This document shows positions 41,814 to 44,817 of a stretch of DNA of 60,621 bases, one piece after another. The stretch's first letter is position 1; every line of letters starts with the position of its first letter. The notes below the pieces were generated by a model. It did not search any database. It was not told the origin of the DNA and worked only from the letters and a program-made list of their open reading frames with translations. This DNA comes from an uncultured Lachnospiraceae bacterium (lineage in GTDB: Bacteria > Bacillota > Clostridia > Lachnospirales > Lachnospiraceae), in contig CAKRPS010000013.1 of NCBI GenBank assembly GCA_934385475.1, positions 1 through 60,621 of the forward strand, written 5' to 3'. The translations under genes were made by a program, and so were the position numbers.

Positions 41814-41842
41814 TTGACAAAATACCCATAGGGGGTATATAT
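41814..41842 (+). promoter_or_regulatory. Copper-operon promoter with CsoR-type operator
   Basis: TTGACA at 41814-41819 is followed after 17 bases by an ATATAT/TATATA -10 region. The spacer holds ATACCCATAGGGGGTAT (41822-41838), a G-rich palindrome of the kind bound by copper-responsive CsoR repressors. Repressor binding would cover the promoter completely. Confidence 0.8.
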
Positions 41843-41899: not shown

Positions 41900-42247
41900 A
41901 TGGATAAACAATGGCAGGATGATGAAGAATATAAGAAAGAAGAGGCGGCGGATGTCTGTGCCTGTTGCCGGCATAAACAGACACCGCGTCCGGAGGAGGA
42001 ACGGAAGAAGCTCCAGAACAGGGTAAACAGGATTATCGGACAGATGAACGGTATCCGTTCCATGTTGGATGACAACAGATACTGTGGAGATATCCTGATC
42101 CAGATCGGTGCGGTTGAAAGTGCATTGCAGAGTCTCGGATATCTGATTCTTCAGGATCATCTGGAAACCTGTGTAACACAGGAAGTGCAAAAGGGAAATC
42201 AGGATATTATGCGGGAGGCTGTTGAACTGATCAAAAAGATAAAATAG
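41900..42247 (+). CDS. csoR: CsoR-family copper-sensing repressor
   Basis: 115 residues of the DUF156 (Trns_repr_metal) fold. The Cu(I) ligand triad Cys-His-Cys is in place (RYCGDIL, then DHLETCV), along with [15 protein letters not shown]. An extra N-terminal CACCRH cluster could bind metal as well. Apo-CsoR represses; copper releases it. It precedes the copper ATPase gene by 17 bases and follows a fitting operator. ATG 41900 has GGGGA upstream. Confidence 0.92.
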
Positions 42248-42264
42248 AAATGGAGATTGGTAAA

Positions 42265-44817
42265 ATGCAAAGCCAGAAATTTGAAGTGACGGGAATGACA
42301 TGTGCGGCATGCAGTGCTCATGTGGAAAAAGCTGTTCAGGCAGTTTCCGGGGTAAAGACAGTCAGCGTGAATCTTCTGATGAACAATATGCTGGTGGAGT
42401 ACGAAGCGCCGGCCACGCCACAGATGATCTGCGATGCGGTAGCGGCAGCAGGATATGGGGCAAAGAGTGCGGACGGGAAGAACAGTGTTAACGACGAAAA
42501 GCTTTTGGAGGATCATGAGACACCAAGACTGCGCCGCAGGCTGATCGCATCGGTGTGTCTTTTGATTCCGTTGATGTATGTGTCGATGGGAGCGCTGATG
42601 TGGGGATGGTATCTTCCGGCAGCCTTTGCGGAAAACCCATGGGCGATTGCGCTGTATGAACTTTTGCTGACCGGATTGGTGATGGTGATCAACCAGAAAT
42701 TTTTCATAAGCGGTTTTCGGGGCCTGATCCGTAGAGCTCCTAACATGGATACGCTGGTGGCGCTGGGAAGCACCGCGGCATTTGTATACAGCACAGCAGT
42801 GATGTTTCAGATGGGAGAGCATCTTTCCAAGGGACATGGAGACATGGCCATGCACAGCCTGCATGACATGTATTTTGAATCGGCAGCTATGATCCTGACA
42901 CTGATCACGGTTGGAAAAATGTTGGAGGCTTACAGCAAAGGCAAGACAACCAATGCGATCAAAGGGCTGATGAACCTCGCACCCAAAACAGCCCATGTGA
43001 TACGGAACGGGGAGGAGGTAACCATCCCGGCAGAAGAGATGACGGTCGGTGATATTTTTGTGGTACGTCCGGGAGAAAGCATTCCGGTAGACGGTGAAGT
43101 GACGGAAGGCGCGAGCGCGGTAGATGAGTCGGCACTTACCGGAGAAAGCCTGCCGGTCGACAAGCAGACCGGAAGCCGTGTGAGTGCGGCTACCCTGAAC
43201 CAGAATGGAATACTGACCTGTAAAGCGTCCAGAGTCGGGAAGGACACTACTCTGCAGCAGATCATTGACATGGTGGAAAACGCGGTGGCAACGAAGGCAC
43301 CGGTAGCACAGATTGCGGACAAGGTTTCCGGAGTCTTTGTGCCTGTGGTGATCGGCATAGCGTTAGTGACAGGAGCGGTATGGCTGATCGCCGGAGCAGG
43401 AGTTGGGAAAGCGCTGTCGCATGCGATCAGCGTACTGGTGATCAGCTGTCCCTGCTCCCTTGGGCTGGCAACACCGGTTGCGATCATGGTGGGCAACGGC
43501 ATGGGAGCCAGAAACGGAATCCTTTTTAAGAACGCGACCGCGTTAGAGCAGACCGGCAAAACGCAGTACGCGGTGCTGGATAAGACGGGAACCGTTACAG
43601 AAGGAAAGCCACGCGTGACAGACATTGCCGTGTTGGGAGCGGAAACCCAGGAGGAGCTTTTGCAGACGGCATATTCGTTGGAGAAAAACAGCGAGCATCC
43701 TCTGGCAAGGGCAATCTGTCTGGAGGCGGAAGAACGGCAGACAACTGCGAAAAAGATAGAGGGATTTACAGCGAAGCCCGGATGGGGAGTCGAAGGAATA
43801 CTGGATGGATACAGGATATCAGGTGGCAACAAAGCTCTTATGGAGGAGAAAGGCTTCCTCACATCGGAGGCAGCCAGGTTGGGCGACCACATGGCACAGG
43901 AAGGCAAGACGCCCTTGTATTTTGCAGATGAAAAAGGGCTTCTCGGCATCATTGCAGTGGCTGATGTGGTAAAAGAGGACAGCAAAGAGGCGATAAGGCA
44001 GCTAAAGGCTATGGGAATCTGTACGGTTATGCTGACCGGAGATAACTATCGTACAGCACATGCGATCGGAGATCAGGTTGGCCTGTCTGCGATCGTGGCA
44101 GATGTCCTGCCGGGAGACAAGGAGTCTGTGGTGAGAGAGCTCATGGAACATGGCAGGGTCGCAATGGTGGGAGACGGAATCAACGATGCACCGGCCCTGA
44201 CAAGGGCGGATGTCGGAATTGCCATTGGGGCAGGTGCGGATGTGGCACTTGATGCTGCGGATGTGGTATTGATGAAATCTACCCTGATGGATGTGGCAGC
44301 AGCGATCCGGTTGTCCAGACAGACCCTGAAAAATATCCATGAGAATCTTTTCTGGGCATTTTTCTACAACTGTATTGGGATTCCGCTTGCGGCGGGTGTG
44401 CTTATTCCTGCATTCGGACTGAATCTCAATCCCATGTTCGCTGCGGCGGCAATGAGTCTGTCCAGCGTATGCGTCGTGACGAACGCACTTCGGCTGAACC
44501 TGTTTGACGTGGGCTCATCCCGAAAAGATAAAGAACGGAAATTGCCGGCAGCACCGGACTTTCTGATAAAAGCTTCATTGGAGAATAAGGAGGAAGATAA
44601 AATGGTAAAGGTTTTGAAGGTAGAAGGAATGATGTGTGCACATTGTCAGGCACATGTGCAGAAGGCACTGGAAGCGGTTGACGGTGCAAAGAAGGTTGTT
44701 GTAGATCTGGATGGCGGAACGGCAACGGTGACAATGGAACAGGAAATTCCCGATGAAAAGCTCAAGAATGCGGTGACAGAAGCCGGATATCAGGTTACCG
44801 GTTGTGCAAGACAGTAG
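42265..44817 (+). CDS. copA: Copper-exporting P1B-type ATPase with N- and C-terminal metal-binding domains
   Basis: 850 residues. Order: N-terminal HMA domain ([10 protein letters not shown]), membrane helices, actuator domain ([13 protein letters not shown]), the transmembrane metal site CPC (about 395-397), phosphorylation site DKTGT (Asp about 439), [16 protein letters not shown], the last two helices, then a linker and a second HMA domain ([10 protein letters not shown]) at the very end. C-terminal HMA domains are unusual in CopA. GGAG supports ATG 42265; ATG 42250 lacks a ribosome site. The last domain has its own ribosome site and start (44602). Confidence 0.93.
44602..44817 (+). CDS. 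Nested CopZ-like copper chaperone from internal start in copA
   Basis: Inside copA and in the same frame, AAGGAGG (44587-44593) is followed eight bases later by ATG 44602. Translation from here yields 71 residues beginning [19 protein letters not shown], precisely a CopZ-type chaperone. The layout looks like a copA-copZ pair whose intergenic stop has been lost, leaving the copZ initiation signals alive. Two products, CopA with an attached chaperone and free CopZ, are expected. This is inferred from sequence alone. Confidence 0.6.

Follow-up and report, generated by a model that had tools for sequence, protein, structure and literature searches.

A predicted internal start in a copA-copZ fusion gene of Lachnospiraceae and other Clostridia, which may provide a free copper chaperone beside the pump

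Does a copper ATPase gene which ends in a chaperone-like domain encode one protein or two? The question is raised by the copA gene of an uncultured Lachnospiraceae bacterium, in which a putative ribosome binding site and a start codon precede the second HMA domain. The window, that is the whole stretch of DNA analysed, is 60,621 nucleotides long (contig CAKRPS010000013.1 of assembly GCA_934385475.1). The locus comprises the following features.

41822..41838, no strand assigned: CsoR-operator-like palindrome ATACCCATAGGGGGTAT, found by eye between TTGACA (41814-41819) and TATATA
41900..42247, + strand: gene of a CsoR/RicR-type metal-sensing repressor (PF02583, profile match; start codon chosen by eye)
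42250..44817, + strand: copA-copZ fusion ORF, copper-translocating P-type ATPase of 855 aa with N- and C-terminal HMA domains
42274..42462, + strand: N-terminal HMA domain with the motif MTCAAC (NCBIfam matches spanning residues 9 to 71-72)
44500..44601, + strand: putative linker past the NALRLN motif, from comparison with split relatives
44587..44593, + strand: internal Shine-Dalgarno (SD) sequence AAGGAGG, codons AAG GAG G, from sequence and pairing energy
44602..44817, + strand: nested copZ, 71 codons from the in-frame ATG 44602, with the stop codon of copA
44611..44793, + strand: C-terminal, CopZ-like HMA domain with the metal site MMCAHC (PF00403, residues 788-848)

The CopA of the window belongs to the copper-translocating P-type ATPase subfamily (TIGR01511, 591.4 bits for a cut-off of 397), and its score against the E. 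coli-type equivalog NF007952, 634 bits, is short of the required 1316. The gene more likely starts at ATG 42265 (850 aa) than at ATG 42250, because the SD is nearly absent at 42250 (energy of -1.5) and present at 42265 (-7.9). The repressor gene is located just upstream, and the palindrome before it is a putative CsoR-type operator; the unit is therefore probably under copper control. Sites of the type TACCC-N-GGGTA, like that of the window, occur upstream in 55 of the 78 loci scanned, a figure which has no chance control. Inspection by eye also reveals a promoter-like TTGACA and TATATA pair with the TACCC/GGGTA palindrome in its spacer (41814-41841), 5' of the csoR-like gene; this pair is not among the promoters listed by a rule-based scan. 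The promoter and terminator scan gave no result above shuffled sequences.

The initial annotation described AAGGAGG at the boundary of the second HMA domain, an in-frame ATG eight bases further on, and a CopZ frame of 71 residues. These elements are indeed present: the motif occupies 44587-44593, the 8-nt spacer 44594-44601 and the ATG 44602-44604, and the nested ORF 44602-44817 encodes 71 aa. The Pfam HMA profile PF00403 covers residues 788-848 of the 855-aa ORF, or 4-64 of the 71-aa product. The latter scores 62 bits (cut-off 24.8) and has the motif MMCAHC, as expected of CopZ, a stand-alone HMA protein with MxCxxC and some 65-75 aa in length; the best NCBIfam CopZ model, NF047957, gives 67.4 bits, below its cut-off of 85. 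The anti-SD pairing energy at 44602 is -11.1 kcal/mol, and no other of the 35 in-frame ATGs listed in this ORF has such strong pairing. Only 0.5% of the 738 in-frame codon positions of the window gene are as strong as the junction SD, and 8 of 2745 other internal in-frame ATGs of fused genes (0.3%) reach -11. The junction SD and ATG of the window are beyond chance expectation. RNA folding does not discriminate, as the stretch of 71 nt around 44602 is unstructured (z of 1.64) and the copA start region is alike (1.35).

Relatives were collected in two ways. A genome scan with six search peptides gave 80 loci; the junction peptide was one of the six, and its exact copy is found in the window only among 135 fused sequences. 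The second set, a class sample, consists of 148 genomes taken evenly across the class to which the Lachnospiraceae MAG G001 belongs; 131 of them have a match, and the best match with its flanks was taken for 128. Eight match rows of this sample were left out (G142, G096, G036, and second matches in G119, G066, G144, G018 and G112). Of the 80 loci from the scan, 78 were pooled with 54 from the class sample, three plasmid copies and the window, which gave 136 fused loci and, after removal of one duplicate, 135 unique junctions. L028 and L057, whose contigs stop short of the HMA, were left out, as were 12 loci devoid of the ATPase anchor motif; manual parsing showed five of these 12 to be fused, with a start. 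The start was sought as an ATG 11 codons ahead of the first metal cysteine. This fixed-column rule was made the main one because the "last ATG" rule can choose the wrong methionine, in motifs like MTKTMKIEG (under that rule, 90 of 119 junctions are at or below -7). The 2745 comparison ATGs are the other in-frame ATGs of the 119 fused genes in which the last-ATG rule finds one at the junction.

The fixed-column ATG is present in 101 of the 135 junctions. Its SD energy is at or below -7 in all 101 and at or below -8 in 98, with a median of -11.1, compared to 221 and 117 of the 2745 other ATGs, respectively. Sixteen further junctions, those of L059 (TTG) and L104 (GTG) among them, have a start and an SD outside the column, assigned from SD scores and thus by a looser rule, which brings the total to 117 start-bearing and 18 start-less junctions. 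In a control where a single rule was applied to both groups, an ATG with an SD was found at 115 of the 135 junction HMAs and at none of 40 second N-terminal HMAs of other CopAs. Since fused genes hold one N-terminal HMA, these 40 come from non-fused genes (29 split genes and 11 genes that have no tail HMA). The genuine copZ starts of split relatives have a similar SD strength (median of -10.9, n = 38; 35 of 38 at or below -7).

Among the 128 genomes of the class sample, start and SD are retained in 55 of the 58 with a fused copA, and three have the fusion only; 34 have a separate HMA frame past the copA stop, 29 have no HMA in the stretch examined and 7 are unparsed. The 55 include five that needed manual parsing, as well as the centre genome, which is also L001. 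The outcome that was to count against the initial annotation, a linker kept in relatives while the ribosome site and the ATG are gone, is the reverse of what is found: the distance from the NALRLN-type motif to the start column, measured at 129 of the 135 junctions, is anywhere between 10 and 85 residues, with a median of 33, while SD and start are kept in 117 of 135. This conservation supports the proposed internal start, which would give a free CopZ beside full-length CopA, and from the comparison of sequences we strongly infer what had been a proposal.

An SD-like stretch inside a gene may have another function. It could slow the elongating ribosomes as they pass from the membrane part to the HMA domain, which would help folding, and the ATG would then be a plain methionine. 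Pausing at SD-like sequences has been proposed in bacteria, and the stretch does sit at a domain boundary, past the last membrane segment. Against pausing speaks the coupling of the SD to a start codon, which is seen at all 101 fixed-column ATGs and also where the ATG is replaced, by GTG in L104 and by TTG in L059, both with a strong SD. In 9-nt windows, the anti-SD energy of start-bearing genes has a sharp minimum (-4.7 to -8.7) for windows whose first base is 12-18 nt ahead of the start, whereas the start-less genes show no minimum there (-0.3 to -1.9), although a 5-base SD core persists in the 22 nt before the column in 3 of 18 and their energy goes down to -3.5 at -24. A second dip, at +18 to +21 inside the HMA, is found in both groups (-5 in start-bearing and -4 in start-less genes). 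Pausing is thus very improbable as the explanation.

The SD could also be a by-product of the codons of a conserved linker peptide, of the type K-E-E-x-x-M. Many linkers do have KEE or KEN ahead of the methionine, and such peptides by themselves raise the SD scores: random synonymous recoding still gives a mean energy of -7.0. The observed mean is -10.6 (aggregate z of -11.8), a significance which rests on the aggregate, as only 6 of 101 genes have P ≤ 0.05 individually. Codon usage at the SD is indeed skewed to AAG GAG. Glutamate is encoded by GAG in 73 of 84 cases, compared to 1888 of 4129 in the rest of the start-bearing genes, and lysine by AAG in 58 of 61, compared to 1779 of 3831. Moreover, the same nucleotide motif is obtained from K-G-E, T-E-V, M-E-V and other peptides. 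Among the fixed-column junctions, 97 match the SD over five bases or more; its core is in codon phase 2 in 81 of them, in phase 0 in 14 (mostly K-G peptides) and in phase 1 in 2; the use of several phases indicates that one nucleotide motif is encoded by differing peptides. Selection of the peptide as the sole cause is therefore hardly credible.

How did the fusion arise? The initial annotation asked whether relatives have separate copA and copZ genes. They do, in the same order, in 34 of the 128 class-sample genomes, and also on Enterococcus and Collinsella plasmids. At the place of the window linker, split relatives have the stop codon of copA followed by intergenic DNA and the ribosome site of copZ, and their HMA starts 22-212 nt past the stop (38 rows). 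By score, 127 of the 135 C-terminal HMAs of the fused proteins are closer to free CopZ than to the HMAs at the N-terminus of CopA. In a FastTree tree of CopA cores, four changes are needed between fused and split states; 36 of the 38 split rows are in one part of the tree, along with one fused row, and the fused L134 and the split L157 are sisters with full support. The simplest account that we infer from these sequences is the loss of a stop codon, which would have made the intergenic stretch into a linker.

A fusion of this kind would initially carry a leftover SD, so the copZ ribosome site might be a fossil which outlived the fusion by chance and has no present role. The 3 of 58 fused class-sample genomes where SD and start are missing are in line with this idea. 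Against it, the site is retained in relatives whose tail regions are only 48-74% identical to that of the window, with linkers of very different lengths and the SD in several codon phases, and synonymous sites are biased toward the SD. It is very unlikely that the site is a fossil and nothing else. The fossil, pausing and peptide explanations were all rejected on the evidence of conservation, start-codon coupling and codon bias. The suggestion that a copA-copZ fusion stayed functional is in turn favored by the split relatives, the CopZ-like tail HMAs and the retained SD and start.

A further HMA frame is found downstream in 12 of the 16 start-less fusions for which enough sequence is available (L051 and L124 have too little), compared to 0 of 104 start-bearing fusions. 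Eleven of these frames are within 92 nt and have 75-111 codons; that of L054 has 320 codons, is 564 nt downstream and is not CopZ-sized. L064, L068, L119 and L138 have neither a start nor a downstream HMA neighbour, and L065, within a start-less clade, has kept the start and has no such neighbour. The Fisher value of 1.7e-13 ignores kinship and is too strong, because the start-less rows sit in about five places of the tree, mainly in two clades. Indeed, the start state requires five changes on the tree, and an independent-pairs test gives three pairs (five on all branches), none contrary, which is not significant. Loss of the start thus appears to be usually paired with a downstream HMA gene, on the basis of few independent lineages.

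L080 has two tandem C-terminal HMAs, the first with no start and the second with AGGAGGT 7 nt before an in-frame ATG, which suggests a nested start at the last copy; it has the neighbour gene too. If L080 is recounted as start-bearing, downstream neighbours are found in 11 of 15 start-less and 1 of 105 start-bearing fusions, and in 10 of 15 of the former if the L054 neighbour is also dropped. The downstream HMA genes of L046, L052, L053, L058, L067 and L080 (90-103 codons) are of the GMMC-G/N-M/H-CE type and have a longer C-terminal part, unlike ordinary CopZ. Those of L069, L071, L073, L075 and L079 are of the G-M-x-C-G-G-C type, and L071 has two in succession.

A separate HMA gene may also be located upstream of copA, in the start-bearing L060 and L072 and in the start-less L119. 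Such upstream neighbours do not separate the groups in the 105 loci considered (2 of 64 start-bearing, 1 of 16 start-less, 25 too short). In L060 and L072, the upstream frame has 130 codons and precedes a start-bearing fused copA. Small HMA ORFs apart from copA (at most 145 aa, at least 40 bits) were also counted over whole genomes. They are found in 14 of 18 start-less genomes and in 12 of 29 start-bearing ones, but in none of 3 further genomes, nor in the single genome G157/L059, which has the TTG start. These counts are blurred because most genomes are MAGs with gaps. The 12 of 29 suggest that the nested CopZ need not be the sole chaperone. Whether a free chaperone is needed can be tested directly by comparing the lineages that have the start with those that do not.

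A free CopZ could also be produced from the same frame mainly via a short transcript of its own, or through proteolytic cleavage of CopA. A possible precedent is E. coli, in which, as Drees 2017 reportedly describes, differential transcripts are combined with frameshifting. On the other side, a simple consensus scan lists no sigma-70-like promoter near the junction, and proteolysis would make the SD and the start codon superfluous. Either route is hardly to be expected as the main one.

Fused copA-copZ has what a gene with two products would show: an in-frame SD and start that are conserved and bear marks of selection. It is very probable, on these comparisons, that one frame gives two proteins, a pump with a tethered chaperone and a free CopZ. 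In the proposed scheme, the copA stop of an ancestral copA-copZ operon would have been lost, and the short intergenic stretch that bore the copZ ribosome site would have become the linker. Ribosomes coming from the copA start would make CopA with its tethered CopZ, while others would initiate at 44602 and make the free 71-residue CopZ, which would bring Cu(I) to the pump. The ribosome site would have been retained because free CopZ is still needed. A broader proposition is also likely, with less confidence: much of the Clostridia would obtain a free chaperone, often solely, from an unannotated gene nested in copA, by internal initiation convergent with the E. coli frameshift, and the lineages that lose the start would have an adjoining HMA gene. 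If so, the annotation of many gut Clostridia misses a copper chaperone. The three fused plasmid copies inspected have one CDS listed each, in a gene table which is incomplete by its own description.

Several known systems resemble this one in part. E. coli copA, with its product CopA(Z), is reportedly the subject of Meydan 2017 and Drees 2017. In E. coli and here (by prediction), a pump and a free HMA chaperone come from one copA gene, but in E. coli a frameshift frees the N-terminal HMA, whereas here an in-frame internal start would free the C-terminal domain. The production of pump and chaperone by frameshifting is described in PMC9548414 and cited in PMC7558416. According to PMC8553256, the C-terminal domain of SctQ/HrcQ is made as a protein of its own (HrcQC) by in-frame internal initiation from the same gene, as predicted here; that experimentally demonstrated case concerns an unrelated protein of the type III secretion sorting platform, whereas ours is deduced from sequence. 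Split copA-copZ operons (the ATPase-tcrZ pair of Enterococcus, Collinsella, and the 34 class-sample genomes) have the same gene order and a comparable copZ SD strength, but copA has its own stop and the copZ HMA lies beyond it. The CopA of Archaeoglobus fulgidus also has a C-terminal HMA, described as a tethered domain, which is reportedly the subject of Agarwal 2010; the matches of the 71-aa product include PDB 3fry, which we take to be this C-terminal metal-binding domain. In the open-licence PMC literature, no paper was found which connects CopA/CopZ or a copper ATPase to a C-terminal HMA, to fusion or to internal initiation, and a search on internal initiation in general likewise gave none. 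As far as that literature shows, a copZ nested in copA would be a new combination of known kinds. If it is real, two distant bacterial groups have independently come to encode a pump and a free chaperone in one gene, each with its own mode of translation, and this would suggest an advantage in making the two proteins together or in a fixed ratio.
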